The notes beneath the pieces were generated by a model. That model ran no database searches. It had not been told where the DNA came from and worked only from the letters and a program-made list of their open reading frames with translations. A stretch of 41,461 nt of DNA from a virus. The translations under genes and the position numbers were made by a program. Of the stretch, positions 372-41,395 are shown piece by piece (within the stretch, counting starts at the first letter, position 1; the number at the start of each line of letters is the position of its first letter). The stretch covers positions 1 to 41,461 of the IMG/VR virus record IMGVR_UViG_3300036846_000474. The stretch is one strand, 5' to 3'.

Positions 372-1019
372 GTGACTTTACTCGCTCCGATCACGCTCGG
401 CGGTCTTTCGTATACGCCTGTCTCTATGCCGACGACGCCAGCGCCGGCATCGATCACGTTCGGGCTGCAGGATACTGTCGCGGTCGTCGAGTCGCCGTAC
501 GTTCCGTCGCAGAATCAATATCAGATATGGCCGGGAGCCGATCGCTGGAGCGTAACGGTAGAGCTCCCGCCGATGCGCCGAGTAACCGCGATGCCATGGC
601 TCGCTTTTCTCGCCGAGCTCAAAGGCATGTCCGGTTGCTTCCTGCTCGGCGATCCGCTCGGCAAACTTCCATCCGGAGAAGTGAGCGGCGCGCCGGTCGT
701 CAGCGGAACGAACCAAGTAACGACGAATACGCTCGCGACGCGCGGCTGGTCGCCGAACGTTTACCGGCTCTTGCTGCCCGGCGATTATCTAGGAATTCTC
801 AACCGGCTTTATCAGGTAACGGCCGACGTAAACGCCGACGGTTCCGGAAATGCTTCGATCTCGATTTGGCCGTCGCTCCGCGATACGCTTTCCGACGGAA
901 CGGCGATCAATTTCGTGAATACGTTCGGCGTCTTCCGGCTCTCGAGCAATAAGCGACAGTGGCACGCGTCGCCGAAGCAGTTAACGCAAATTAGCTTTTC
1001 CGCGATCGAGGTTCGTTGA
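372..1019 (+). CDS. Distal tail protein-like (tail tip assembly)
   Basis: 215 aa, GTG start with GAGGA about 7 bases upstream. It opens a tight tail-tip operon: the next gene starts on the base after its stop. The protein is beta-rich with no signal peptide or membrane segment. Its place (after the tape measure and fibres across the circle junction, before a hub-like protein, an NlpC/P60-like peptidase and a J-like tip protein) matches the distal-tail position of lambdoid siphophages and gene transfer agents. The function therefore comes mainly from synteny; there is no catalytic motif. It could be another tip component of similar size. Confidence 0.6.
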   Translation: MTLLAPITLGGLSYTPVSMPTTPAPASITFGLQDTVAVVESPYVPSQNQYQIWPGADRWSVTVELPPMRRVTAMPWLAFLAELKGMSGCFLLGDPLGKLPSGEVSGAPVVSGTNQVTTNTLATRGWSPNVYRLLLPGDYLGILNRLYQVTADVNADGSGNASISIWPSLRDTLSDGTAINFVNTFGVFRLSSNKRQWHASPKQLTQISFSAIEVR

Positions 1020-1574
1020 ATGGCACGCGATATCTCCGCGCCGATGCTCGCGTCGCTAGAGTCGAACGTGATCCGGCCGGCATTCATGGCCGCGATCACG
1101 TTTCGCTCCGCGGCCGAATATATCTGGACCGGCGTCGGCGATCTTATCTTTGAGGGAGCCACGTTTCGCGGCGTCGGATCGTTCGGAAGACTCGGAACGA
1201 TCTCGGAAGGCGTCGAAGTGAGAGCAGACGGAACCTCCGTCACTCTGAGCGGGATCGACCCGGCGCTGCTCTCCGAATGCCTGACGGATATTCAGATCGG
1301 CGCGCCTGCGCGTATCTGGCTCGCTCTTTTCGATGAACACGCGACGTTGCTCGGGACGCCGTATCAACTTTTTTTCGGGACGGTCGATCAGCCGGTTCTG
1401 AACGTCGGCACGGAAGAGATGGCGATCACACTGAAGCTCGAGAACAAGCTCGCGAATCTTCAGCGCGCATCAATGCGGCGTTATACCGCGGCCGATCAAA
1501 ATCTCTATTATCCCGGCGATACCGGGATGAACTGGGTCGAGCTAATGAACGATATCGCACTGAAATGGAGCTAA
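1020..1574 (+). CDS. Tail hub/tip-associated protein
   Basis: 184 aa, ATG directly after the previous stop. The N-terminus reads like a family common in siphophages, in which a short leader (MARDISAPML) precedes aromatic segments such as YIWTGVGDL and a glycine-rich turn GVGSFGRLG. The family sits just before the NlpC/P60-like tail peptidase and the host-specificity protein, as here, and is thought to be part of the tail-tip hub. No enzymatic residues are evident. Name resolution is limited: it could match the DUF2163-like neighbourhood of gene transfer agents, but I cannot confirm membership without a profile search. Confidence 0.6.
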   Translation: MARDISAPMLASLESNVIRPAFMAAITFRSAAEYIWTGVGDLIFEGATFRGVGSFGRLGTISEGVEVRADGTSVTLSGIDPALLSECLTDIQIGAPARIWLALFDEHATLLGTPYQLFFGTVDQPVLNVGTEEMAITLKLENKLANLQRASMRRYTAADQNLYYPGDTGMNWVELMNDIALKWS

Positions 1575-1577
1575 CGC

Positions 1578-2012
1578 GTGGAACGACTCGAGCACTGGGC
1601 AACGCGGAGTTACGACCGCTTTCTAATATCGCGCGCGTTTACTCCGTACAAGTGGGGAGAGAACGATTGCGCGCTGTTCGTCGCCGACGGGATCGAGGCG
1701 ATAACCGGCGTCGATATCGCCGCCGACTTTCGTGGAAAGTACGACGACCAAGCGAGCGCGATGAAAGCTATCAAGACGATCGCGAAGGGAAAGACGATCG
1801 CCGACGCGATCGCATTCTGCGCCGCGAAATATTCGATTCTCGAATGGCATCAACCGCTCTTCGCGCAGCGCGGCGATATAGCGACGTTCAATAACGAAGG
1901 AAGACTGATCTGCGGTCTGATCCATTTAAACGGCCGCGATATCGTCGCACCCGGCGATAGCGGGCTCCAGCGTTTTCCGATTACTCTCATCGATAGGGCA
2001 TGGCATGTCTAA
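1578..2012 (+). CDS. NlpC/P60-like tail-associated cysteine peptidase (DUF6950-like)
   Basis: 144 aa, GTG start with GGAG 7 bases upstream; its end overlaps the next gene by 8 bases. The segment KWGENDCALFVADGI (about residues 25-39) is the signature of small phage NlpC/P60-like proteins, with C31 as probable nucleophile. A downstream RGDIATF segment matches the usual second motif. Such proteins sit before the tip attachment protein and are believed to open the cell wall during DNA entry. No separate endolysin was recognised in the window, so this is the clearest wall-degrading candidate. The catalytic His is not certain from the sequence alone. Confidence 0.75.
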   Translation: MERLEHWATRSYDRFLISRAFTPYKWGENDCALFVADGIEAITGVDIAADFRGKYDDQASAMKAIKTIAKGKTIADAIAFCAAKYSILEWHQPLFAQRGDIATFNNEGRLICGLIHLNGRDIVAPGDSGLQRFPITLIDRAWHV

Positions 2013-5000
2013 AGCAATCGCCGGAGCCGCGTTACTGGCCGGAGCCGCGGTACTGGCGTTCGTTCCCGGCTTAAACGTTCTCGGCACGCCGCTGCTGCTT
2101 AATCTGATGTTCTCGCTCGCCGCGGGCGGCGTGGCGATGGAAGCCGGAGCGATCGCCGAAGCTCTTACGTCACAGCGCGGCCAGAACATCACGACCCGGA
2201 TGGCCGCGGGCCTGCGGCAAATCATCTACGGAACGCAGCGCGTCGGCGGCGTGATCCTTTATCAATCGACGACCGGCGCGGGCGGCGCGGGCGGCCACTA
2301 CGTCTATAACTTCGTGATCGCGGTCGCGACGCATGAGATCGACGCTTTCGTAAATGTCTTCCTCGACGGCCGACAAGTATTTTTCAAGCAAGACGGGAAT
2401 TTCGCGAATATCGGTTGCGGCTCCGTCGCGACGCCTCCGACGACGACCGTCTCCGTCTCGGGTGGATCCGTGACCGGCGTTACGGCGAGCGGTGGCTCCG
2501 GCTTTTCGCCGGTCAAGCCGACGCGTTACCGGGTCGTTTTCCGCGGAGGTGGGGGAAGCGGCGCGGCCGGTTACGCGCATAACTCCGGAACCGTCGCCGC
2601 GCCTGTTTGGAGTGTCACGGTGACCGCGGGAGGCTCCGCGTATACTTCCACCCCCACCGCGGAGATTCAAGGCGCATACACGTTCGGTGGCGTCGGAGCG
2701 GCCGACGAACAAGACCCAAGCAAGCCGGGTTACGGAACCGGGTACGGGCAGGGGCCGAGCGGCGAGCATTACAACTTCAGCGGGAAAGTTTTCTGTGACG
2801 TACGCTTCGGGGATCAGCCCGCGGGCGATTACATGGCGTCGCTGCGCACGAACGATTCTGTTTGGCCGACGACGGCGCGGCTCGGCGGGATCGCCTACAT
2901 CTACCTGAACGTTGGTTACGATACCGGACTCTTTCCATCGCTTCCGGAGATCAAATTTACGATCAACGGAAAAAATACGATCTTCGATCCGCGGTCCGGA
3001 AAATTGGGATTCTCGACGAATTGGGCGCTGCAGGTCGCGGACGTTCTGACGGATATAAACGTCGGGCTCGGCGACGACTCGGTGAACCAGGCCCAACTCA
3101 TCGCCGCGGCGAACGTCTGTGACGAGCTCGTCGCGCTCGACGCGCAGCCAGCCGAAAAACGATACAGCCAATCGATCCACTACGATACTTCGATCAGTCC
3201 CGGCGACGCGCTTCTGATGATGATGCCGAGCGCGGCCGGTCGCCTGAGTCGGATCGGCGGCGAGTGGTTCATCTGGCCCGCGTACTGGCAAGGCGCATCG
3301 TTCAGCTTCGATCAATCGGCGCTGATCGCGACGCCGACGTGGACGCCGAAGCGGAGCTTCAAAGATTTATTTAATCGAGTGAGCGGAACCTATATCGCGC
3401 CGAACTATCCGTACAACGTCGCCGGGAATTTGTATGACTCTAACGGCTGGTACTACGGGACGCGTGATAACATCTGGCCGTTCGCGTGGCAGCCGACGAA
3501 TTTTCCGCAGTACGCCGCGGATCGTCTCCACGGTTACGCGGCCGACGAATTCCTCGCAGAAGACGGAGGAATCCAACTGCCGAAAGAGATCGCGCTCCGC
3601 GGAGTGATCTCGATCGCGCAAGCGCAACGGCTCGCAAAAATCGAACTGATGCGGAACCGATATCAGGGCTCGGGATCGTTCCCGCTAAAGCTCGGCGCGT
3701 TCCAAATGCAGCCGATCGACGTGCTCGCGTTCGATTGGCCCGCGATGGAATGGACGCTGAAGACGCTCGAGGTAACTTCGGTTCAATTCGTCGCGGAGGA
3801 AGATCAGAGCGGCGAAGGGAACGCGATCCGGCTCTATGTTCGCGTGGGCGTGATCGAGACGGATTCTCTCGTGTACGAGTGGTCGATCGGCGAGGAGCTT
3901 TCTCCGTATGACGTTCCCGATCCGGCCGCGCAGATTCCGGCGACGCCAGCGCCGCCGACGCTCTTCACCGTGACGAGCTCGGCGGGAACTGCGGTCGTCG
4001 GCGCTGACGGTGTAGTAATACCGCGCGCTCTGCTCGAGTGGAATGCGCCGCTCGATATTTCGGTGACCGGAATTCAAATTCAGTACAAGCTCACGAGCTC
4101 CTCGACGTGGCTCGCGGCCGGCACCGTTGACGTGGCGCTCTTCGAGCAATACGTCGGCAGCGTCGTCGCCGGACAGATGTACGATTTTCAGATTCGGAGT
4201 GTTCGGCCGAACGGTCAGACTTCAGTCTGGGTTCAGGACTTGGGAGTCACGATCAGCATCACGCTCTCGATCTCTTCGACCGGAAATCCGGTCGCGCCAC
4301 CGGGAACGCTGACGGCGGTTGCGGTTGCGGGCGGAACGGCGAATATTATCGTATGGCCGTTTACCGCTCAAGTACATGCGGTTACCGCGCCGTGTCTTCC
4401 GAGCGGACCTTACACGATCACCGGTCTGAATTGCGCGCAGCATTATTACGTCTATTACATCGATCCGACTTTCGCGGGCGGCGCCATCACTCCGATCGCA
4501 ACATCGGACACCGCGGATTTCGTCGGCAAACTCGGATACTACTTGATCGGCGATATCGTTACGCCGAGCGCGCTCAGTGGGCCAACGAACCGGCCGAGCT
4601 CGTATACGATCGCAAGCGGCAGCGTCGGCGTTACTACTCCGGAGAAAGCATACGACTCGAATCCGACGACGTGGGCGGAGGTTCCGGCGTTCGGCACCGG
4701 TAGTACCGGGAATCCGATCGACCACGCTTTCGGCTCGACGATTACGTATGCGGGATTTCCATCGACGGTCCTAAGCGCCGCGGCGACGCTCTCGGTTCAA
4801 GCCGAGATTCTCGCCGGAGGAGCCGGAGCCGGTGCGGGATGTAACCAAACCATCGCCGTGAGTCTTGACGGTGGTACGACTTTTACAACTCTTATATCGA
4901 CCGGCACAGGTGCGGCGATGACGACCTATACGCTCACGGTCCCGAGCGGAACGAACCTCGCGAATATTCAGGTATACGCATCGGGCACCGGATCAACGCT

Positions 5001-5052
5001 TCCGGCGCAAGCGAATTTAACACTCCGGATTTATGAGATCAGCGTGGCATAA
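2005..5052 (+). CDS. Tip attachment / host specificity protein J-like
   Basis: 1015 aa. The N-terminus has two hydrophobic alanine/glycine-rich helices (about residues 3-55), then a segment with AAGLRQIIYGTQRVGG typical of siphophage tip proteins. A low-complexity Gly/Ser/Thr insertion follows at about 135-230. The middle forms the hub-like body. An Fn3-like domain is visible at about 645-750 (ALLEWNAP, IQYKL, YDFQIRSV). The C-terminal 150 residues resemble a carbohydrate-binding or jelly-roll domain and probably carry receptor specificity. In the known order this protein closes the tail tip and contacts the host surface. Start ATG at 2005 overlaps the peptidase gene by 8 bases. Confidence 0.85.
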   Translation: MSKAIAGAALLAGAAVLAFVPGLNVLGTPLLLNLMFSLAAGGVAMEAGAIAEALTSQRGQNITTRMAAGLRQIIYGTQRVGGVILYQSTTGAGGAGGHYVYNFVIAVATHEIDAFVNVFLDGRQVFFKQDGNFANIGCGSVATPPTTTVSVSGGSVTGVTASGGSGFSPVKPTRYRVVFRGGGGSGAAGYAHNSGTVAAPVWSVTVTAGGSAYTSTPTAEIQGAYTFGGVGAADEQDPSKPGYGTGYGQGPSGEHYNFSGKVFCDVRFGDQPAGDYMASLRTNDSVWPTTARLGGIAYIYLNVGYDTGLFPSLPEIKFTINGKNTIFDPRSGKLGFSTNWALQVADVLTDINVGLGDDSVNQAQLIAAANVCDELVALDAQPAEKRYSQSIHYDTSISPGDALLMMMPSAAGRLSRIGGEWFIWPAYWQGASFSFDQSALIATPTWTPKRSFKDLFNRVSGTYIAPNYPYNVAGNLYDSNGWYYGTRDNIWPFAWQPTNFPQYAADRLHGYAADEFLAEDGGIQLPKEIALRGVISIAQAQRLAKIELMRNRYQGSGSFPLKLGAFQMQPIDVLAFDWPAMEWTLKTLEVTSVQFVAEEDQSGEGNAIRLYVRVGVIETDSLVYEWSIGEELSPYDVPDPAAQIPATPAPPTLFTVTSSAGTAVVGADGVVIPRALLEWNAPLDISVTGIQIQYKLTSSSTWLAAGTVDVALFEQYVGSVVAGQMYDFQIRSVRPNGQTSVWVQDLGVTISITLSISSTGNPVAPPGTLTAVAVAGGTANIIVWPFTAQVHAVTAPCLPSGPYTITGLNCAQHYYVYYIDPTFAGGAITPIATSDTADFVGKLGYYLIGDIVTPSALSGPTNRPSSYTIASGSVGVTTPEKAYDSNPTTWAEVPAFGTGSTGNPIDHAFGSTITYAGFPSTVLSAAATLSVQAEILAGGAGAGAGCNQTIAVSLDGGTTFTTLISTGTGAAMTTYTLTVPSGTNLANIQVYASGTGSTLPAQANLTLRIYEISVA

Positions 5053-6184: not shown

Positions 6185-6500
6185 TTCGGCCGTACGCTTT
6201 CGAGCGTACCGGGTTTACCGGCCACAATCGTCTAGCCAATCGGGTCAGATTTGGGTCCAAAAGTAACCCCGGCGATCCGGGCCGGAGCCGGTCGCCGGGT
6301 CTTGAGACCGGCTCTCTAATCCTGTCGTGGCGGGTGCTACGGGGCTCGTGGCGGCGTTGCCAGCGAGGGCCACGTGGGGTAGGGCTTGGGAATGCGCCGC
6401 AAACCCGCCACCTTCAGAACGGGCTATTCGCTCCGGAATAGGGCAGAGGGAGTCAGTTCACTTGCCTTGGCGTGTCGGAGCCACGCTTGCGGCGCATAGC
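6185..6500 (-). ncRNA. Candidate structured RNA region in the zinc-ribbon operon
   Basis: A 334-base gap without a credible gene holds at least six perfect or near-perfect stems: GTACGCT/AGCGTAC with a TTCG loop (6192-6209); CCCGGCGA/TCGCCGGG (6268-6299) with an inner CCGG/CCGG; GAGCCGGTC/GACCGGCTC (6285-6314), which excludes the previous stem; GTGGCGGGT/ACCCGCCAC (6327-6411) enclosing CTCGTGGC/GCCAgCGAG (6345-6367); CTATTC/GAATAG (6424-6441); and GCGTG/CACGC (6470-6486). The strand is inferred from the flanking minus genes. Overlapping forward reading frames are biased in composition and lack ribosome sites. RNA function is a hypothesis. Confidence 0.5.
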
Positions 6501-6506
6501 GGGATT

Positions 6507-6914
6507 CTACTTCTTCCGGAGTACCCGATCGACCGCGGCGTGGAGCCGCGTCTCGGCTTCGGGACCGGTGTCATATTCGATGATCTCGCTCGCGATTCGC
6601 CGGAGTACCGGGGAGACCGTCGCGCCGCGGCAGACGGCGACGATGATCGGTTTATCGAGGAGAACGGCCGCGCCGATTTCGAGACACATTTTCGCGTCGA
6701 TCTTTTCGCCGTGAAGCGCGATACAGATTGATGACCCTTTCATAGCCGGGATTACGCGACGCTCGAAGTCGTCGAAAAAATCTTGAGTCTCAGGCTCCAG
6801 ATATTTATGGCACCCGCTGCAATACTTTTCGCGAACGTCGTTCGGATTCCAAGACGTTCGGCCGCAGAGAAGACAGGTGATCGATGCGCCGAGATCAGAG
6901 ATGCGGTAATTCAT
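6507..6914 (-). CDS. Zinc ribbon fused to nucleoside deoxyribosyltransferase-like domain
   Basis: 135 aa; ATG at 6914 with GAGGAA upstream, overlapping the upstream gene by ATGA. Residues about 14-36 hold two CxxC pairs (CLLC and CSGC). The second part, about 40-130, has the alternating pattern of small Rossmann-like deoxyribosyltransferase/TIR-like domains: a beta strand SICIALHG, an acidic residue before MCLEIGAAVLLDKPIIV, then a Gly-Pro turn and an amphipathic helix. Related small proteins occur in actinophages, usually without the ribbon. Activity on nucleosides or NAD-like molecules is inference: the catalytic Glu would be in CLEIGAA, but the N-terminal substrate loop is not obvious. Confidence 0.6.
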   Translation of the reverse strand: MNYRISDLGASITCLLCGRTSWNPNDVREKYCSGCHKYLEPETQDFFDDFERRVIPAMKGSSICIALHGEKIDAKMCLEIGAAVLLDKPIIVAVCRGATVSPVLRRIASEIIEYDTGPEAETRLHAAVDRVLRKK

Positions 6915-7135
6915 TTACGATTCCTCACGCGTTCTATTCGAGCGTTTAGGCCGAATGATATCAAGTGATACATAGTCCAGAGCACGTCTTCCCATTCTTT
7001 GAAAAGCCGCGCTCTTTTGCGATCAGTCGATAGTCGTAGCGAAAGTTCATCAGCGGCTCGATACGTTTCAAGGAAAAGACGGAAGCGGCCGCGAGATGAT
7101 CTTGGCTTCAACGAGATTAGATAGCGCGGCGACAT
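6911..7135 (-). CDS. Hypothetical small basic protein
   Basis: 74 aa from ATG at 7135, preceded by GAGAGGATC; an upstream in-frame start at 7174 lacks such a box and would lie deep in the neighbouring gene. The protein is basic and helical, with many Arg and Leu and no cysteine. It overlaps the upstream zinc protein by 19 bases and the downstream gene by 4 (ATGA), so the three are probably translated as a block. No recognised domain. Confidence 0.6.
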   Translation of the reverse strand: MSPRYLISLKPRSSRGRFRLFLETYRAADELSLRLSTDRKRARLFKEWEDVLWTMYHLISFGLNARIERVRNRK

Positions 7136-7392
7136 GATCCTCTCTTTCCGAGAAAAGGCTGTAATGCAGTCCAAGCGGCGAGAGCGGCGCGCGCGGCTTC
7201 GCGCTGGGTCATCCCGGCCGGATCAGATTCCGAGGAGCCGCGAACGTAGCAGGAACAGCGCCGCTCGATATGAGCGACCGATCCGATCACGCCGCGGAGC
7301 CCGCACTCGCGGTGCATCGTTACCCGGCCGTCATTCATCGTCATAATCGCGTCGCCGCTTTCGATCGATTCAGTACAATAAGGACAGAGCAA
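7117..7392 (-). CDS. Small zinc-binding phage protein (CPYC / HREC type)
   Basis: 91 aa with a TTG start at 7392 behind GGAGG. The N-terminus has CPYC within the first six residues, then HREC at about 28-31 and a later CSC, matching a type of small zinc protein common in actinophages and other siphophages (CPYC... HREC... GSVAH... C). It probably binds nucleic acid or protein; no function is established. A 16-bp-stem hairpin (7418-7482) lies immediately upstream of its ribosome site and may control it. Confidence 0.7.
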   Translation of the reverse strand: MLCPYCTESIESGDAIMTMNDGRVTMHRECGLRGVIGSVAHIERRCSCYVRGSSESDPAGMTQREAARAALAAWTALQPFLGKRGSCRRAI

Positions 7393-7417
7393 TCAGGTTT
7401 CCTCCGTTTCAATTTTT

Positions 7418-7482
7418 CCGGCAGCGCGGGAGTCCTTCGACGGTGAGCCCATACCCGTACTCCCGCGCTTTGAATTTGCCGG
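7418..7482 (-). promoter_or_regulatory. Long stem-loop in leader of the 7392 gene
   Basis: Two nested perfect inverted repeats: CCGGCA (7418-7423) with TGCCGG (7477-7482), and GCGCGGGAGT (7424-7433) with ACTCCCGCGC (7459-7468). On the minus strand this is a 16-bp stem with one 8-base internal bulge and an inner ACGG/CCGT. It ends about 25 bases before the TTG start, next to the GGAGG box. There is no T-run, so it is not a standard terminator. Confidence 0.6.
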
Positions 7483-7487
7483 AATCT

Positions 7488-7841
7488 CTAGGCTCGCTTT
7501 TTCATAAACGCTGGTGGCTCGCCGCGATCCTTCCGCTCCTGAGCGATCCGGCGCGCTGACTGGGATCGACGCCGCGCGGTCAAGCTATCACGTTGAGCGG
7601 CGATCGCGTTCGAAACTTTCGGCGGAAGCGCGAGCCGCATTACGCCGGTCTCGTCAACACACTGAACAAAGATGAAGTCTCCACCTTTGTCCTCGAATCG
7701 GCAAGTCTGAACGATAAACGTCTCCGACTTTCCGGTTAAAGATTCGACATTCTGAATCGTTGACGGCTTGGTGAACATGGCAACATCGGCGAGACCTCCG
7801 CGGAGTCGATCGTATTTCGAAATCGTATTTTCGTCGGACAT
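7488..7841 (-). CDS. Hypothetical protein
   Basis: 117 aa from ATG at 7841, chosen because AAAGGGAAAACGAA lies directly upstream; a longer frame from 7901 has no ribosome site. The fold appears mainly beta in the middle (SETFIVQTCRFEDKGGDFIFVQC, read here as separate strands), followed by a basic helical tail ending in KKRA. One CxxxxC-like pair is not enough for a zinc site. It shares its unusual ribosome box with the gene at 6172. Function unknown. Confidence 0.7.
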   Translation of the reverse strand: MSDENTISKYDRLRGGLADVAMFTKPSTIQNVESLTGKSETFIVQTCRFEDKGGDFIFVQCVDETGVMRLALPPKVSNAIAAQRDSLTARRRSQSARRIAQERKDRGEPPAFMKKRA

Positions 7842-7986
7842 TTCGTTTTCCCTTTCTGTCTCTATTTTAATTTGCGTGATTTCGAAATCGCCTTTATCCA
7901 TAGGTGTTTTGCGCGTTTCGCGTCTCTATCTCTTTTCGATCAGCGCGAAAATATTCTGCTGGACAGACGCGCGACGATTTTTCGCG

Positions 7987-8295
7987 TTAGTTATTTTCGT
8001 GGCGCTCTTCGGCGCGTTTTCGACGAAGCTCGGCGACCGCTTTCGAAGCGGCGAGCAGCGCCGCTAATCCTTCCGGATTACGCTTTCCGAGTTGGAGAAT
8101 ATCTTCATCGGTGGCGAGTCGGAGCTCGGTCTCGGTGAAGCGATGAATCGCTCCGCACTTCGGGCAGATAGTGAAGCCGCTCTTCGCGCTCGGATGTAAA
8201 CCTGAAGCGACGAGCGCATTTTTTGACGGGAAGCCACACTCTGGACATACGAGCGGAGCGGGAAGATTATCGACGGATCGAATGCAGATGGTCAT
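7987..8295 (-). CDS. Zinc-ribbon protein with helical tail
   Basis: 102 aa. Two CxxC knuckles, CPECG at about 17-21 and CPKCG at about 44-48, form a classic zinc ribbon. A long charged amphipathic helix follows (about 60-100), which would suit dimerisation or nucleic-acid contact. It follows the gene ending at 8302 by six bases. The ribosome site is weak, so coupling to the upstream gene is likely. Unknown role; probably a small regulator or adaptor. Confidence 0.7.
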   Translation of the reverse strand: MTICIRSVDNLPAPLVCPECGFPSKNALVASGLHPSAKSGFTICPKCGAIHRFTETELRLATDEDILQLGKRNPEGLAALLAASKAVAELRRKRAEERHENN

Positions 8296-12721: not shown

Positions 12722-12892
12722 ATGTCTAGAGATCGAGATTCAGTTGTACTTTGCGAGTCGTGCGGCAAGGTGATTTATTGGCGTCTTGTTATCGGGTGGA
12801 TTCATCAGGATTCCGGTCTTCCGATGTGCAACCAGACGAGGGCTTGGCCGCAGAATGAGCCGCGAAAAGCCGTACCGATGGGGGAAGAATGA
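12722..12892 (+). CDS. Small zinc-knuckle protein (56 aa)
   Basis: Found by reading: ATG at 12722 is the base after the previous stop, and its own stop overlaps the lipoprotein start (ATGA). A CESCG knuckle at about 11-15 and a later MC/H suggest a partial zinc site. It keeps the tight spacing of the operon on both sides, which supports reality despite its size. Not recognised. Confidence 0.65.
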   Translation: MSRDRDSVVLCESCGKVIYWRLVIGWIHQDSGLPMCNQTRAWPQNEPRKAVPMGEE

Positions 12893-13737
12893 AAAAGCAA
12901 TACGCTCTAGTTGTCGCACTTCTATTAACCGGCTGCGGGCTCCGCCATCACGTTAAGACGGCGACCGCGCCGCGCGCGACCGCGCATCAGGTAACGCTGA
13001 CGTCGAAGAGTGCCGCTTGTAAAGCCGACACGTCATGTCAAAATCCGCCATATAACCAGACGGCGTTTACGAACTGCCTCTGTAACCTTCAGGTATGGAG
13101 AGCGCGCGGGAGTACGGGCGGGTGGGTTCAGCTTCAATCGGCCGGCAGCGCCGCGGTCGATTCGACCGGTACGGCGTGGACGTTCAAAGACAACGATCCG
13201 GGTCTCACTGACGGATCCACTTGGAACTATTACGAGACGGTTTCGTGGCAACAGGACACGACCGGTGCGGTGAGCCCGCCGACTAACACAGTTTTTGTAA
13301 CGGTTCCCACGTCGGCTCCGGCGCATCAGGCGACGCTCAATTACACGTCGTCCGCGTGTACGCTCTCGCAAGGTTGCTGGATTCAGCTTTACCGCGCGAC
13401 GTGCGCGAGCTCAGTCTCGTGTCCGGATTTCAAAACAAATCCCGGCGCGTATACGCAACTAGCGAACGTTCAGATTCCGATCTGGAATACCGACGCGAAC
13501 GGGACTACATGGCAACTGATCGACGCCGATCCCGCGCTCGCCGACGGAACGGCGTACGCGTGGGTTTCGACGCTCTGCTGGGCAAATACCTGTCCCGCGT
13601 ACAGTGACCCGTCTCCGGTGTGGATCGGACTAACGCCAGGTGCGCTCGGAGCTCCGACCGTCGGAGCCGGGAATACCGTTTCAATGATTGAGGTGAAAAA
13701 TGAGGATGCTTATAATCGCTCTCATAGCGATCGCTAG
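12889..13737 (+). CDS. Secreted lipoprotein with two Fn3-like domains
   Basis: 282 aa. The N-terminus is a lipoprotein signal: positive MKKQ, hydrophobic ALVVALLL, lipobox LTGC, so C16 would be acylated and the protein exported. Two copies of one beta-sandwich domain follow (about 34-145 and 150-255). Each begins HQ(V/A)TL, holds paired cysteines, and ends with DPxLxDG-T-W/AxxYxxV and a Ser-Pro strand. The gene product downstream has a third copy. These resemble Fn3 domains of bacterial surface proteins. In a prophage such a lipoprotein could alter the cell surface or block superinfection (inference). It overlaps the next gene by 38 bases. Confidence 0.75.
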   Translation: MKKQYALVVALLLTGCGLRHHVKTATAPRATAHQVTLTSKSAACKADTSCQNPPYNQTAFTNCLCNLQVWRARGSTGGWVQLQSAGSAAVDSTGTAWTFKDNDPGLTDGSTWNYYETVSWQQDTTGAVSPPTNTVFVTVPTSAPAHQATLNYTSSACTLSQGCWIQLYRATCASSVSCPDFKTNPGAYTQLANVQIPIWNTDANGTTWQLIDADPALADGTAYAWVSTLCWANTCPAYSDPSPVWIGLTPGALGAPTVGAGNTVSMIEVKNEDAYNRSHSDR

Positions 13738-14215
13738 TTATGGTCAGGCGCCACCGTCGGCCCCATCCAACCAAGCTCCGGTTTACTACAGCCACTCGAA
13801 GCAGGGTCGAGTCCAAACCCGAGACCCGCGCGCCCCGCGCGCCGGGGGGCATACGGCGACGCTGAACTGGTCGAACACCAGTTGTACGACGACGAAGCTC
13901 TGCTTAATTCAGGCGTACCGTAACGTCTGCGCCAGCCCTACATCGTGCCCGGCGTTCGCGGGTCCGACGGGATGGACGCTACTGCCCAGCGGAAACGTAA
14001 TAGCTACGCCGGGAACTAGCGGCACCACTTGGGTAGCGACCGACACCGACGTTGCGATGCAGGATGCGACGACCTACGTCTGGGTTGCGACGAATAGCTA
14101 TCAGGCGAGTCCTACCGTCTACAGCGCGCCGTCGCCGCCGTGGAGTGGAACCACTAGCGCCGCGCCGGCAGCGCCGCCACCGCCTGCTAATGGGCCGGGA
14201 AACACGATTCAATGA
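13700..14215 (+). CDS. Secreted protein with one Fn3-like domain
   Basis: 171 aa. A short signal peptide (MRMLIIALIAIASYGQ) ends in a likely cleavage site before APP. After a flexible linker it carries one domain (about 50-150) paralogous to the two in the upstream lipoprotein, with the same HTATLNW opening, CLIQAYRNVC pair and YVWVATNS ending. The last 20 residues are Pro/Ala-rich. It is probably soluble in the periplasm or secreted. It is coupled to the lipoprotein gene and may act with it. The ribosome site lies inside the upstream gene (TTGAGG). Confidence 0.7.
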   Translation: MRMLIIALIAIASYGQAPPSAPSNQAPVYYSHSKQGRVQTRDPRAPRAGGHTATLNWSNTSCTTTKLCLIQAYRNVCASPTSCPAFAGPTGWTLLPSGNVIATPGTSGTTWVATDTDVAMQDATTYVWVATNSYQASPTVYSAPSPPWSGTTSAAPAAPPPPANGPGNTIQ

Positions 14216-34040: not shown

Positions 34041-36428
34041 ATGGCGGAAAATGCTGGCGAAGTAAAAGTCATTCTCGCCGCCGATGGTACGTCGTGGTCG
34101 AGCGCGCTCGATAAGGCGCAACGCCAACTCGACAGCTTGAAAAAGAGCGCGCCGGGTCTCGGTCAGTCGATGCGCAAGGAGATGACGGAAGCGCGCGGCT
34201 CGATCGCTTTACTTGGTGAAGAGATCGGTATCCGTCTACCGCGTCACGTTCGCTCATTCCTCGCGGAGCTTCCCGGCGTCGCGAGCGCAATGTCGGCCGC
34301 GTTTACCGGCGTGGCTATCATCGCGATCGGCGTCGCGCTCTTCGAAGCCGGAAAGAAAGTCGCCGAGTTTGTCAAAAAGACGGAAGAGGCGGCGAAGAAA
34401 AACGAAGAGGCATGGCGAAACCTCTCGAGCGGGCTTCACATTACAAACGATCAGCTTCAGGTCTCGAATGACAAACTCGCGGAGACGATCGCGAAGCTCG
34501 GCGGGAAACCTCAGAACGGATTAAAGCTCGCGCTCGATGAAGCGATTCTCTCCGCCGACGAGCTCGGCAAGAAGATCGACGAAGACACGAAAAAATTAAC
34601 TGAGCAGTTGAACGTTAATCGGCCATCGCTGATGAAGCAACTTTTCGGTTCGGCCGATACCGACGATATCAAAGCGAAGTGGGATGATCTCGCCTCAAAG
34701 ATTACAGAGACGCGCGTCGCCGGAGTCGAATCGATTCGCGCGGCCGGCACGAATCCGGATGACGTTAAAAAAGCACAAGACAAGCTCGATCGCGATCTCC
34801 AGACGCTTTATGAAGAGGGATCGAAGTTTGCGTCTGCGGTATATAAAAGTGCGCGAACGGCGCAGGATGCGCAGTGGAAGCACGCGCAGGGGATACCGGT
34901 CGCGCAGGATTTGATCAGCGGCTTTAATAGCCAAGATATGACGGGACGCATCGCTGCGTCTGCCGGAATGATGGACTTTTTTGGAGTCCAATCAGATTAC
35001 CTGAGCGGAACGGCGACGGCGCGCGCGCTCGGAAAAACGAAAGACCAACTCGAGGCGGCGCGCGACGCGAACGAAGCTCTGAAGCGGCTTACCGCGGATC
35101 GTCTGCGCGCGATGGAAGATGAGCTCGCGCAAGAGAAGATGCTCCACTCTATGACGCTCGAGGAAGAGCGGAGCTTCTGGCAGAAACGATATATGGCCGG
35201 GTCGAATCTCGGCGATCCGATCAACGATCTGATCGCGCGCCGGATCGCTCCGCTTAATCAGGAGATTTTGAAACAGGACGCGGAGCAACTCAAAAAGTGG
35301 ACGGTAATGATCGAGCAGCTCGAGAAGACCAAGCCGGAGCGGTTTGATTTCGGCGAGGTGCCGGATGTATTTCGCATCCCGGCGAGCGGCGCGGAGAGCG
35401 CGCGCCAAGCGGCGCTACATGACCGGCCGGAACTGCTTCGCTCGATCGCCGCGGCTCAAGCCGAGTTGAACGTCGCGGAAGGAGTCGAGTCAGGGCTCCT
35501 CGATAAGAGCGCGACCGCGACGATTCGCCAGATGAACGCCGTCGCGAAGCTCCGCGCCGAGCTCGACGAGCTCTATGCGAAACAGGCCGCGGTCCGGTCT
35601 CTTTCGCCGCAGTCCTATACGGCGACGATGAATCCGGAGTTTCTTCAGAACGAGGTAATTCAGAAACAGGCTCAACTCGGCGCGGCGACGCAGGAGCTCC
35701 AGTATCAAACTGAAAAGGATACGTTCGGCGCGCAAATGAGCGTGATGTTTAACGATTGGATCCGACAGGCGACGGACCTCAAGGGCATTATGGGCGGATT
35801 GTTCCAAGAGACGATGAATTCCGTTAACGAAGGGATTATCAAAACGATTACGACGCGGAACAATCCCCACCTCTGGACCGATACCGGAAAACAGATCGCG
35901 ACCGGCGTCGCGCGGAAGGGACTCGAGTTTGGCGAGGGCTCGATCGCGAAAGCTCTCAAGTTACCCGGCGTCGGCAAGCTCGGCTCGAGCGCGGCTAACG
36001 CGATGTGGACGCGGAGCGCGGATACGTTTAAATCGGGCTCGACTACTCTTGGCGGGCTGATCAACTCGAGCTCGGCGGGCTCCGGCGCGAGCGGCTTCGG
36101 TAAGTCGATACTCGGGTCGCTTATGAATATGATTCCGTTTTTAGCTGGCGGCGGATATCTCGAGACGAATATGCCCGCGGTCGTCGGCGAGCACGGGCCG
36201 GAGCTCTTCATCCCGAGCGGCTCCGGCCGGATAGTTCCGAACGATGCGCCGATGCTCGGGACGAGCCATACGTGGAATATCGACGCGCGCGGCTCGAATG
36301 ATCCCGCCGCGGTTCGCGCCGCGGTTCAGCGCGGGATTATGGAAGCCGCGCCGCATATCGCGGTGAGCGCGATCGCGGCACAGAACGAGCTCCGTTCCCG
36401 AATGCCGTCTATGAGCACGATGCGTTAA
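34041..36428 (+). CDS. Tape measure protein
   Basis: 795 aa. A coiled-coil N-terminus (SALDKAQRQLDSLKK), a hydrophobic segment at about 75-110 (VASAMSAAFTGVAIIAIGVA), long charged helices, and the C-terminal GGGYLETNMPAVVGEHGPELFIPSGSG motif (in pieces) common to tape measures. Using the usual 1.5 angstrom per residue, the tail would be about 120 nm. It sets tail length and may help DNA entry. Confidence 0.93.
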   Translation: MAENAGEVKVILAADGTSWSSALDKAQRQLDSLKKSAPGLGQSMRKEMTEARGSIALLGEEIGIRLPRHVRSFLAELPGVASAMSAAFTGVAIIAIGVALFEAGKKVAEFVKKTEEAAKKNEEAWRNLSSGLHITNDQLQVSNDKLAETIAKLGGKPQNGLKLALDEAILSADELGKKIDEDTKKLTEQLNVNRPSLMKQLFGSADTDDIKAKWDDLASKITETRVAGVESIRAAGTNPDDVKKAQDKLDRDLQTLYEEGSKFASAVYKSARTAQDAQWKHAQGIPVAQDLISGFNSQDMTGRIAASAGMMDFFGVQSDYLSGTATARALGKTKDQLEAARDANEALKRLTADRLRAMEDELAQEKMLHSMTLEEERSFWQKRYMAGSNLGDPINDLIARRIAPLNQEILKQDAEQLKKWTVMIEQLEKTKPERFDFGEVPDVFRIPASGAESARQAALHDRPELLRSIAAAQAELNVAEGVESGLLDKSATATIRQMNAVAKLRAELDELYAKQAAVRSLSPQSYTATMNPEFLQNEVIQKQAQLGAATQELQYQTEKDTFGAQMSVMFNDWIRQATDLKGIMGGLFQETMNSVNEGIIKTITTRNNPHLWTDTGKQIATGVARKGLEFGEGSIAKALKLPGVGKLGSSAANAMWTRSADTFKSGSTTLGGLINSSSAGSGASGFGKSILGSLMNMIPFLAGGGYLETNMPAVVGEHGPELFIPSGSGRIVPNDAPMLGTSHTWNIDARGSNDPAAVRAAVQRGIMEAAPHIAVSAIAAQNELRSRMPSMSTMR

Positions 36429-36437
36429 ACCCGTTTT

Positions 36438-36455
36438 CCCGGCGCAATAGCCGGG
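36438..36455 (+). promoter_or_regulatory. Hairpin in leader of the fibre gene
   Basis: CCCGGC, loop GCAATA, GCCGGG, located in the 63-base gap between tape measure and fibre gene. No T-run follows; it might only be an mRNA boundary structure. Confidence 0.4.
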
Positions 36456-36491: not shown

Positions 36492-39400
36492 ATGAAGACG
36501 CGCGCCAGAATCGCTCTCGCGGCCGTTATGGGGATAGCTGTATCGCTCATCGCTCAGGCGCCACCCGGATACGTCACTTTAAGCGGCGCGAATATCTCCG
36601 ACAGTTCAGGCGCGAAGCTGGTAAACGGGACGATCAAATTTGCGCCGGTCGATAACCACGGAAACCCGATCAGCTATCAACCCGGAGGAAGCGGTCAGGT
36701 TATTACGAAGCCGATCTCGACGCTCGTTACCAATGGCGCGTTTTCGATTCAGATCGCGGATTCCGGCGAGACGAAACCGGCGAATGTTTGTTTTTCGGTG
36801 ACGGTTACGGATAACGTGAGCGGCGCGAGCGTGCTCGGACCCGGCTATACCTGTATGCAGCCGATGGGGACGTTCTCGCTGCCGCCTGCGCCGTTCTGTA
36901 CCGCGGCCGGAGTCATCACGCAGGGCGGCGCGTGTAACTTCGATCTGTTCGTTCCGAATCTCGAAGGGAATATCATCGTGCAGACCGGGCCACCGGGACC
37001 AGCGGGGCCACCGGGACCGGCAGGGCCCACCGGTCCAGCGGGCGGGCTTCCGGTTAACAATCCCGCGTTCACCGGAACGATGGCGGGGCCAGCGGCTAAC
37101 TTCACCGCAGGGAATATCAATAACCTCTCTGGTGCTCCGCGGAATCCCGCTTATAGCAGCGTTTTTCAGGAGCGGGATGGCTGGCTCCAAAATTTCACCA
37201 ATGACACGACACAAGGCGAGAGTCTTGGCGGCAGCGGCACTCAGGTAGGTGGCACGGTAACAGGTTTAAACCTGTACGACCTCTTTAGTTCTCCCGGTAT
37301 TGATCTCGGGAATCCCCCGATAGGGCCGCAGGGATGGTCAGTTCAGAAGGGTCTCCAAATGACCCTACACGCTACTTCTCCCGGTATTACTGAGCCGATC
37401 AATATCATCAGCTATAAGAGCGGCATCGGCGACTATTCGAATTACTTCTACAGTTGGAGCTACGGCGGAGCGATCGCGCCATCCGACGAAGGCCACGAAA
37501 TTATGGCGTTGCAAGGTGGTGAAGCGGCGCAAACCTATACCGGCAATATAACGACGGGATCGACGGGCGCAACCAGTCTCGTTGCGAACTGTACCGGAGA
37601 CTGCGCCAATCTCGGTGATGGTCGCTATCTCATTCGCACTCAGGCTGCGGTCGCTACAGGATTTCTTACCGGCGGGACCGCGCCGGGATCTGCGCCGGGG
37701 AACTATACGATTTCATCCACCGTTCCGGTATCAACGTTCTGGGGAACGCTGAACAGCGATGTACAGACACCTGTCGCGGCTCAGGCGGGTAATAGTTATA
37801 CCGCGATGACGTTCGCCGTCACGAAGGTTGGCGGAGCCGGAGCTCCCGTTGCCGGAGACTTGATTTGCTTTAATGGTCAGTTTCACGAGCAAGCGAAGAT
37901 TACATCCGTTTCGGGTTCTAATCCGTACACGCTCGTCGTACCGCTCCGTCATGCCCACCAAGCGGGTAGCTGGATCATGGCGAATGGAGCTTGCGGAACT
38001 TTCCTCGAGATCGTTGCCAACGATCAGACGCCGAACGGTCAGCTATTACGTTTCCCTTACGACGTGATCGGTAGCACAACCGCCAACACGATCCAGTGGG
38101 TGGGTTTCGGTGGAGCGCAAGTAGGCAGCCCGTCATTTGCTGGTGTTTCAGTGTTCAACGTGGGCAACGTTGGCGGGATCGTCACCTTCAACTTCAATGG
38201 CGTTGCCCCTATTTTTAGCAGCGGTGCGGGTGTCTACTTTTCAGGTGCCAGCGATTCCGCATTCAACGGAGCCTGCACCAATCTCCATACCGTCAGTGCG
38301 CAACAACCAAACTACGGACCTTATGCCTGTACGCAAACATCTTCAAACGGACACGCCGGTCCTGCGACCGGAAGTATCACATGGAGCCCAACGCAATATG
38401 GGAATACTCAATTTAACCTCTGGGCTGGTGCCGAAGTTCTCGACGGGAATGATTACTCTACGACGCCACCAACAAACAACGGGACTCATATCACTCTCGA
38501 ACCGAATAAGGTTACGTGGACGGCGGGCGATGCTATCGAGGAACCTCATCACTACGCTCTGAAAACGCACATGATGTTCAACAACATGTGGGCCTATAAC
38601 CCGATGAACCTGAACACCAGCGGTGGCATGGATTTTGGTTTTGGAGGAGCCGGGTTCTCCGGTGCCCTCTACTACGACTCGACCAGCCGCAGCGCATATC
38701 ACATCACGAATTTCAACCCCGGAAGCATGTATGTGGGTCACGGCGGCGCTCTATCGACACCGCTGGGCTTCGCGTTTGATGGTCCGTTTCAAAGTTATTT
38801 CACCACTGCTACAGCTCCCGAAGCCGTGTTCGCATATCTTGGTGCTCCCGTTGGTGGAAAGACGGACCCCACGGCAAAATTCAATCTGTTTACCGTCGAT
38901 ACCTACAATGGACCGGCGTCAATCGGTACCTACTTCCCGTTTCAAAACGTACTGGCGCTGAACGGCGTGAATTTGCAGCCGGGTCCGATGGATGGTTTTA
39001 CGGAAACAGCGAGTATTTCCTTTGCTGGATTAGGAGCACCAACAGATAGCGGATCGTATGCAACCACGGGCGGTTCTCTTCCGGATAACACCACGTATTA
39101 CTACTACGTGATTTCGAATAATGCTTCTATCGGTGACGGTGGGCGCTCTCCCGAAATCGTTGTAACTACCGGAAGCACCGGAGGTAATAACCGGATCAGG
39201 TTGATGTGGCATTTCGTGAATGGTGCCAATGGCTACTACGTTTGCCGCGGATCAACGAGCGGGTCGGAGCAGGCGATATTTCAGTGGCCGGGAGGCTACG
39301 GCGGATATCAAACTTACTTCGACGACATGGGGAACTTGTCTCCTCTTGGTGCGTACTGTCCCGGTGGTGCTGGAACGACTCCTATCAGAGGCGGTATCGA

Positions 39401-40211
39401 ACAGGCCGGATGGCTCGGAGCGAATTCTCCCGGCACAGGGTTTGAAGGAAAGATTCAAGCACCCGCTGCGTTGTCGGGGAATCAGGCGTACACGCTTCCG
39501 CCTGTAGGTGGTGGTGTTTTCGCCATGCTGAATACTCCTAACAGTGATGGGTACGGAGGGCTGGGTGGGAACAAGATATTTTCACTCGGCAATTTCAACG
39601 TTCAGGACATCACCGCGACCAGAACAACTTTTTCTTATAACACGCACTGGACCGGAAGCCAGCAGGTATACGACCAGAACGGATTTGCGGGGCTATTAGA
39701 TTACGGCATTCCCGCTGACGGCGTACTGGCGTGGAGAGCTTATCCAAGTGGCACCGCAGGGGCTCCCGTAACTGGTGGCGGAATCATTTTTACACTCAAC
39801 CAAGACAGCGTCTCGTTGTATAACCCTACGACGACTTTTTATTCGAAGTTCGCATCCGCAGCGACCGCTAATCGAACGATCACTTTTCCGGACGCGAGCG
39901 GCGTAGTGGCTCTAGTTGGCAGTACTAGCGGCATTGCGAATATCCAGATCACTACCGGTACCACTACGATCAACGCCAATACTTGTACGGCTAACACAGC
40001 TGCCGCGATGACCGGTGTACTTACTACTTCGGCCATCGTTCCGCCGACTCCGACCTCGAGTACTACGGGTGTCACCGGTTGGGGATCGAGCGGAGGGCTG
40101 GGGTTCTCGTACTACGTCACCGCGGACACTTTTAATTGGTCCGTCTGTAACGCGACCGCGGCCGCGATCACGCCGGGAGCATCGCTGACTTGGAATGTAG
40201 GTGCGCGATGA
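36492..40211 (+). CDS. Large tail-fibre-like protein with signal peptide and collagen-like repeats
   Basis: 1239 aa, ATG at 36492 preceded by GGGGGAAACCT. Residues 1-22 form a clear Sec signal peptide (RIALAAVMGIAVSLIAQ) before APPGY. A beta domain follows to about 150, then collagen-like triplets (GPPGPAGPPGPAGPTGPAG, about 164-182), a long beta-rich shaft, and a C-terminal domain (FSYYVTADTFNWSVCNATAAAITPG) as in trimeric fibres. Position after the tape measure fits a receptor-binding fibre; a signal peptide does not fit cytoplasmic tail assembly. The middle has different codon use from the ends. It overlaps the next gene by ATGA. Confidence 0.8.
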   Translation: MKTRARIALAAVMGIAVSLIAQAPPGYVTLSGANISDSSGAKLVNGTIKFAPVDNHGNPISYQPGGSGQVITKPISTLVTNGAFSIQIADSGETKPANVCFSVTVTDNVSGASVLGPGYTCMQPMGTFSLPPAPFCTAAGVITQGGACNFDLFVPNLEGNIIVQTGPPGPAGPPGPAGPTGPAGGLPVNNPAFTGTMAGPAANFTAGNINNLSGAPRNPAYSSVFQERDGWLQNFTNDTTQGESLGGSGTQVGGTVTGLNLYDLFSSPGIDLGNPPIGPQGWSVQKGLQMTLHATSPGITEPINIISYKSGIGDYSNYFYSWSYGGAIAPSDEGHEIMALQGGEAAQTYTGNITTGSTGATSLVANCTGDCANLGDGRYLIRTQAAVATGFLTGGTAPGSAPGNYTISSTVPVSTFWGTLNSDVQTPVAAQAGNSYTAMTFAVTKVGGAGAPVAGDLICFNGQFHEQAKITSVSGSNPYTLVVPLRHAHQAGSWIMANGACGTFLEIVANDQTPNGQLLRFPYDVIGSTTANTIQWVGFGGAQVGSPSFAGVSVFNVGNVGGIVTFNFNGVAPIFSSGAGVYFSGASDSAFNGACTNLHTVSAQQPNYGPYACTQTSSNGHAGPATGSITWSPTQYGNTQFNLWAGAEVLDGNDYSTTPPTNNGTHITLEPNKVTWTAGDAIEEPHHYALKTHMMFNNMWAYNPMNLNTSGGMDFGFGGAGFSGALYYDSTSRSAYHITNFNPGSMYVGHGGALSTPLGFAFDGPFQSYFTTATAPEAVFAYLGAPVGGKTDPTAKFNLFTVDTYNGPASIGTYFPFQNVLALNGVNLQPGPMDGFTETASISFAGLGAPTDSGSYATTGGSLPDNTTYYYYVISNNASIGDGGRSPEIVVTTGSTGGNNRIRLMWHFVNGANGYYVCRGSTSGSEQAIFQWPGGYGGYQTYFDDMGNLSPLGAYCPGGAGTTPIRGGIEQAGWLGANSPGTGFEGKIQAPAALSGNQAYTLPPVGGGVFAMLNTPNSDGYGGLGGNKIFSLGNFNVQDITATRTTFSYNTHWTGSQQVYDQNGFAGLLDYGIPADGVLAWRAYPSGTAGAPVTGGGIIFTLNQDSVSLYNPTTTFYSKFASAATANRTITFPDASGVVALVGSTSGIANIQITTGTTTINANTCTANTAAAMTGVLTTSAIVPPTPTSSTTGVTGWGSSGGLGFSYYVTADTFNWSVCNATAAAITPGASLTWNVGAR

Positions 40212-41395
40212 GAAGCGCGATTCTTTTTCTGCTCTCGGCGGCGCAATGCTTCGCGCAGTACACCAGCTATGGACGATCGACCATACCTAAAACGGCGGTC
40301 GTCATTTTGACTAGTGTTTCCTCGTCGAACGCGAGCAGTACTGGTATCGCGGCCGCGCCGTCGAGAAAGCAATTAGGTAACTGGGGGACGGGCTGTACTG
40401 GCGGAGTAATCACCGCGAACGCGCTCGGTCGCAGTAGTCGCATGATGAAACCTTCGACTACGGCGGTGCCGGTCGGTCAGCTCTACGCGACGACCGCTAT
40501 TAAGACGAGCGCGGAAGCCGCGGGCTGCGCCGTTCAAGCCGTAGTAACGGCGACGAGCTCCGGCACCGGGATCGCCGCGCCGGACAATGGGCAAAATGCT
40601 GGCGGTACGGATAGCGCGACAGCTATCACGGATACCTATGGCGGAACGGGAGACGATTCTATCTGTACCGGCGATCCGCACCGCAACGATCCCACGCTCG
40701 TTGTAGGCTTACCAGCGCCGGGTTGCGCATCATCCTCGAGCGCGGTGTTCTCGGAGACGACGGCTCCGAGCTTCGGCAATGCCGACGTGTTGTTTCCTTC
40801 GCTCTACGCGAGCAACTCGACCACGCTCGATCAAGCCTGTTGCTATCTGCGCAGCATGTACTTCGAAGTTACGTCGTTAACAACGCTGTGGGATTTCGAA
40901 TTCGATCTGAATATTAACTCGAGCCCTACAGCGTACACCAACAGTACGGGCGGATATTCCGGCTGGGGAAATCACTGGAATAAATCCGCGAACATGATCC
41001 AGTATTGCCCGCAGGACTGTACCGGATGGAAGACGCTCAAGGGGATCGACGTTGCGGGCGTGGCGGCGAACCTTACCACTTATCCGCTGACTACGAATCA
41101 CTGGTATCACCTTCTGATCTACGGACACCGCGAGCCGAGTTGTACATTCGCGAGTGGATCGAATTGTTACTTTTACGACAAGCTGACGATCTATGACGTC
41201 ACCGCTGCGACGACGCCGGTCACCTATCACCTAGTCGATGCTTCGACGGGCGGACCCGCGGGTGGTATCCCGGTAAATCACAGCACATGGACCGCGGGCG
41301 TTACGCCGCAAGAGCAGATCGATATGACCACCGCGAACGCCAGTACTGGAGTACACATCAACTCAGATATCGTCGAGGTATACCGGCTCCAGTAA
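40208..41395 (+). CDS. Secreted LamG-like protein, fibre partner
   Basis: 395 aa from ATG at 40208 (ATGA overlap); a track-like earlier start at 40190 would disturb the signal peptide. RSAILFLLSAAQCFAQ is a signal peptide with cleavage after FAQ. The first half is Ser/Thr/Ala-rich. The second half (about 210-390) resembles a concanavalin/LamG lectin fold: LWDFEFDLNI, GNHWNKSANMIQY, NHWYHLLIYGHREPS, YDKLTIYDV, with several paired cysteines, consistent with an oxidising compartment. Likely a glycan-binding surface protein or fibre subunit. It converges on the minus gene 3 bases beyond its stop. Confidence 0.7.
   Translation: MRSAILFLLSAAQCFAQYTSYGRSTIPKTAVVILTSVSSSNASSTGIAAAPSRKQLGNWGTGCTGGVITANALGRSSRMMKPSTTAVPVGQLYATTAIKTSAEAAGCAVQAVVTATSSGTGIAAPDNGQNAGGTDSATAITDTYGGTGDDSICTGDPHRNDPTLVVGLPAPGCASSSSAVFSETTAPSFGNADVLFPSLYASNSTTLDQACCYLRSMYFEVTSLTTLWDFEFDLNINSSPTAYTNSTGGYSGWGNHWNKSANMIQYCPQDCTGWKTLKGIDVAGVAANLTTYPLTTNHWYHLLIYGHREPSCTFASGSNCYFYDKLTIYDVTAATTPVTYHLVDASTGGPAGGIPVNHSTWTAGVTPQEQIDMTTANASTGVHINSDIVEVYRLQ

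Follow-up and report, generated by a model that had tools for sequence, protein, structure and literature searches.

The DNA analyzed here (the window) is a virus record of 41,461 bases with no host genome attached, which encodes head genes (terminase, portal, protease, and HK97-type capsid), an integrase/invertase-type recombinase, and a siphovirus-type tail module. Between the terminase and portal genes, 24558-25418 matches phrog_842 (beta-glucosyl-HMC-alpha-glucosyltransferase, E 3e-42), an annotation unexpected at that place. The gene for the tape measure protein (34041..36428, + strand) was recognized by a match to phrog_1538 (tape measure, E 2e-4) and by relatives 45% identical at the same position. 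The gap behind it harbors a perfect hairpin, CCCGGC-GCAATA-GCCGGG (36438..36455, +), which is not followed by a T-run and was not called as a terminator. Next come two co-directional open reading frames of 1239 aa (36492..40211, +) and 395 aa (40208..41395, +), both with signal-type N-termini, as an earlier note on this sequence had reported.

The two ends of the record have eight bases in common (GGCGCGGG), and in three relatives (L094, L095, and L101) the exported gene sits between the tape measure gene and a homolog of window gene 372..1019 (+), a minor tail protein gene. Together these observations point to a circular or circularly permuted record, in which case both exported genes would lie within the tail module and 372..1019 would be the next gene after the pair. 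The label "DUF2460-like" proposed for that gene received no confirmation from Pfam and is not used here as a family claim. The rest of the tail tip (1020..5052, +) encodes a Gp84-hub-like protein (PF09931, E 5e-4, a weak match below the cut-off), a DUF6950 protein (PF22262, E 1e-31), and a large J-type tail protein (phrog_5616 tail fiber, E 3e-53). The J-type protein (2005-5052) and its relatives share a conserved long hydrophobic N-terminal segment (MSKAIxGAxxxxG...), which is possibly membrane-active.

The first protein opens with MKTRARIALAAVMGIAVSLIAQAPPGY and the second with MRSAILFLLSAAQCFAQYTSYG. Both N-termini display the n-, h-, and c-regions of a Sec/SPase-I signal, and neither has a lipobox. 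The predicted signal peptide of the first gene is MKTRARIALAAVMGIAVSLIA (36492..36554, +), likely cut before Gln22, and that of the second is MRSAILFLLSAAQCFA (40208..40255, +), also followed by Gln. Mis-called starts were considered and rejected: the second ATG overlaps the stop codon of the first gene (ATGA), so the second start is well placed, a ribosome-binding-like GGGGGA lies upstream of the first ATG, and the signals are conserved in relatives. Signals were called by a simple rule for Sec/SPase-I signals that gave about 15% false positives (7 of 48 head and tail controls), J-type proteins with hydrophobic N-termini among them; within the window, 6 of the 51 non-overlapping ORFs of at least 80 aa pass it, including both exported genes. 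Because the rule is weak when taken alone, the case for the signals rests on their conservation in relatives. Outside the tail module, two overlapping genes also look exported, 12889-13737 with a lipoprotein-type N-terminus (MKKQYALVVALLLTGCG) and 13700-14215 with a signal-like one (MRMLIIALIAIASYGQAPP).

Behind the signal, the first protein carries a conserved beta domain (N-domain; 36564..36986, +) with two Cys pairs (NVC/GYTC and FCT/ACNFD), which was delimited by alignments and modeled as a compact domain (pLDDT 85). No family in Pfam, PHROGs, or NCBIfam corresponds to it. Its fold matches were weak, both among viral proteins, where they include phage tail fiber and minor tail proteins, and in the PDB (best E 0.03, mixed beta-sandwich proteins), and a sequence search found no relative of solved structure. 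The domain is followed by a collagen-like stretch (36987..37043, +; GPPGPAGPPGPAGPTGPAG) of six Gly-X-Y triplets starting at residue 166, in agreement with the collagen-like repeats of the earlier note. Many relatives have Gly-X-Y stretches too, with weak Pfam Collagen matches, below the cut-off, in L102 and L104 only. Among the relatives, one has the central and C-terminal region (37200..39515, +) at 40% identity; in the others it is largely exchanged for different sequence. Cys residues are numerous and even in number, 14 in the first mature protein and 10 in the second, which bears out the paired Cys of the earlier note.

Proteins of the family are generally built of a signal followed by a beta domain, in many cases a Gly-X-Y stretch, and finally a C-terminal part that varies and in relatives includes SGNH/GDSL hydrolases and a PQQ-type propeller. 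PHROG tail-fiber homology was absent from the first protein of the window; in relatives it arose mostly through the Gly-X-Y stretches, plus the C-terminus of the signal-less L146. Members of the first-gene family have no lipobox and, in a simple scan of the C-terminal 80 aa, no membrane segment, and no Pfam match pointed to a membrane barrel or other anchor. A simple scan also found no promoter of its own directly before the first gene, which is weak evidence.

Scans of viral sequences with the first protein or the tape measure protein as single queries returned nothing, and the first gene had no match in isolated phage records. Searching with the terminase, on the other hand, led to close kin, two of which have an N-domain 49-52% identical to that of the window and a third one 30% identical; over all relatives, identity in this domain is about 30-55%. 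An alignment of the N-domain retrieved 12 viral-contig loci, two of them among the terminase kin, and the domain was also present on two Acidobacteriaceae contigs, one of them from Granulicella sapmiensis. Matches were found in 28 of 300 sampled Acidobacteriaceae genomes. The 12-row alignment was too diverse for a scan of genome contigs; with an improved one, 31 of the 397 Terriglobales genomes sampled had matches, for the most part within tail modules of phages, as did 3 of 396 genomes sampled across the phylum, all three already among the Terriglobales matches. The core genes occupy several slots, mainly in tail modules: on either side of the tape measure gene, behind a hub-like protein, or behind J. 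Divergent members are found next to other types of tail and, as judged by eye, in apparent Mu-like prophages (L204 and L171).

Some relatives have further genes of note. In L094, a second exported-looking protein (6393-8291) adjoins the fiber gene; it combines a signal with a C-terminal membrane segment ending FKFLRKR and has no Pfam or NCBIfam match. The tail module of L094 also retains another spike-like gene, one that lacks a signal. In the Granulicella sapmiensis locus (L111, 14278-18604), three consecutive exported-looking proteins bearing fiber-type motifs such as GIGTSxPxxSLDIHG are encoded downstream of prophage tail genes. In relative G013, a phage protein (L098, 5136-6731) contains a very long repeat in which ARDALDA and ALAARDA alternate.

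One outcome that the earlier note named as refuting, a signal poorly conserved among relatives, was not what we found. The signal directly precedes the N-domain in 23 of 29 non-redundant core members (two of them, L155 and L169, narrowly failed the rule and were assigned by eye) and in most divergent members, with signal sequences that themselves differ from member to member. In the six signal-less core members, a Met stands a few residues before the domain, at what corresponds to the mature N-terminus (MPTGYT, MTGFTT, MAAGYT), and no hidden signal was found upstream in any frame. These members mostly occupy the same gene slots as the signal-bearing ones, and tail-module slots occur in both states. 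Where a locus has two copies (L105, L160, and L162), both are in the same signal state, with one of the L162 calls made by eye.

The cysteines follow the signal. Each conserved pair was present in 22 of 23 signal-bearing versus none of six signal-less core members (Fisher 1.5e-5 each), and an even number of mature Cys was counted in 35 of 38 signal-bearing proteins (binomial 7e-8) versus 13 of 36 tail and head controls, p-values that are not those of independent trials because the members share ancestry. In the signal-less members neither pair is intact, one or both of its Cys being substituted or absent (e.g. NVG..GYGC..AWSFD); their Cys number was even in five and odd in one, too few to be informative. 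Cys density per 100 residues was 1.79 in signal-bearing proteins, 0.91 in signal-less ones, and 0.50 in controls. A gene for the oxidizing enzyme VKOR was present in all eight host genomes tested. In a tree of the domain built with the Cys columns left out, three switches of signal state were needed, one of them forced by well supported branches; the link between signal and cysteines thus appears strong and near complete, but it reflects few events (one to three switches on a poorly resolved tree). Since the signal is conserved and both the Cys pairs and the even Cys numbers go with it, the export predicted from these sequences is very probably real.

The second gene has a single relative in the 300 genomes of the family and 397 of the order that were sampled, 40% identical and corresponding to the C-terminal part of a secreted host protein with NHL-type repeats (an assignment made by eye), which is encoded in a chromosome region without adjacent phage genes. 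Given this single relative and its chromosomal setting, the second gene may be host-derived. The host origin proposed earlier for both genes is thus possible for the second and unlikely for the first, whose N-domain is found in many tail modules, of phages and prophages alike. The LamG-like domain ascribed to the second protein is conceivable but not supported: Pfam, PHROGs, and NCBIfam gave no match, and the model (pLDDT 36) was too poor for a fold search, with a C-terminal half predicted to be all-beta.

The best single reading of these data, which we propose tentatively and place just short of probable, is that the exported proteins are virion adhesins or fibers that would undergo maturation in the periplasm and be added to the tails at lysis. 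The first gene would encode a receptor-binding-type fiber or spike, translated from the late tail module as a precursor for Sec export. After export, signal peptidase I would cut just before the conserved N-domain, and disulphides would lock the fiber in the periplasm; of this scheme, the signal and the Cys pairs are seen in the sequences. The N-domain, as the common part, would probably serve for docking or oligomerization, and the C-terminal part as an exchangeable adhesin or glycan-modifying module, such as the SGNH hydrolase or beta-propeller of relatives; the second gene would supply an exported companion with a domain common to a secreted host protein. Once lysis breaches the inner membrane, finished tails would meet the fibers and the fibers would join them. 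P22 tailspikes and T4 fibers can join particles in vitro, which makes such late joining physically reasonable. Among the options listed in the earlier note, addition at lysis is favored because relatives without a signal have the same architecture and occupy the same slots. The signal-bearing L145 and the signal-less L148 have the N-domain and an SGNH hydrolase in common, suggesting that the two forms do the same work. On the simplest reading, one function would be reached by two routes, a minority of phages assembling the fibers in the cytoplasm and the majority exporting and oxidizing them before they join at lysis.

Display on the surface of the infected or lysogenic cell, the other option of that note, is also possible and belongs to the main rival explanation, in which the proteins would be exported accessory proteins made by that cell. 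They would stay in its envelope or be set free, would never be part of the virion, and would act in adhesion, in exclusion, or enzymatically on glycans. We consider this explanation a serious one, albeit somewhat doubtful. Its model is Lom of phage lambda, a signal-bearing outer-membrane beta-barrel made in lysogens and coded in the tail region, between J and the side fiber (PMC12309495), which, like our proteins, is exported and has its gene within the tail region of a temperate siphovirus. The membrane segment at the C-terminus of the L094 neighbor fits a role in the cell envelope and counts against a virion fiber, as do the signal-less spike-like gene of the same module and the secreted host relative of the second gene. 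However, Lom is a beta-barrel, whereas the proteins described here are large and modular and have no recognized membrane segment; the first-gene family lacks both a lipobox and, by the simple scan, a C-terminal anchor, no separate promoter was detected directly before the first gene (again weak evidence), and the same N-domain and C-terminal module recur in signal-less proteins encoded in those slots.

That the proteins are secreted and act unattached in the medium at and after lysis, as lectins or as depolymerases that release progeny from the polysaccharide of the host, for example, would agree with the SGNH hydrolase and propeller modules of relatives and with the missing membrane anchor. 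We regard this as unlikely, as lysis releases the protein anyway, so that a signal would add little except disulphide formation, and a conserved N-domain with a variable C-terminal part is the usual plan of an attached fiber. Very improbable is that the hydrophobic N-terminus is an uncleaved virion segment for tail anchoring or membrane insertion rather than an export signal. Here the conserved hydrophobic N-terminus of the neighboring J-type protein, which also trips the signal rule, is the argument in favor, but relatives without a signal begin precisely at the mature N-terminus and no longer have the Cys pairs, and Cys numbers are even.

Compared with known phage tail fibers and tailspikes, the virion fibers that we favor share the module order, the tail-operon position, the Gly-X-Y stretch, the SGNH hydrolase modules, and the mosaic C-termini, and differ in the cleavable-type Sec signal of most members, the paired Cys, and an N-domain outside Pfam and PHROGs. 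Filamentous phages make virion proteins with Sec signals, such as pIII and pVIII of M13; however, their virions are assembled in the membrane, and those of tailed phages in the cytoplasm. Tailed-phage proteins that work in the periplasm are exemplified by the T4 antiholin RI and Spackle (gp61.3) (PMC8385771, PMC7650644); neither is fiber-type, and RI is a lysis regulator (PMC8385771). No precedent for signal peptides on tail fibers, or for a tailed phage mounting a periplasmic fiber, appeared in the open-access literature searched, which is no proof of novelty.

Extended to the tailed phages of the Terriglobales, the proposal would be that receptor-binding fibers are routed through Sec, oxidized in the periplasm, and mounted on finished particles only at lysis, with virion assembly split over two compartments; we put this forward with more reserve, as a possibility suggested by the sequence comparisons. 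Signal peptides are commonly read as a sign that a gene is no structural gene of a phage, and in one study their absence from hypervariable phage proteins was taken to favor a phage origin (PMC6199706). Because naturally paired forms exist, one bearing the signal and one lacking it, the question is open to direct test. If fibers across the phages of a host group carry signals, the signal-peptide rule fails there, receptor-binding proteins would be misannotated as host proteins, and the assembly of tailed phages would include a periplasmic, disulphide-dependent step.
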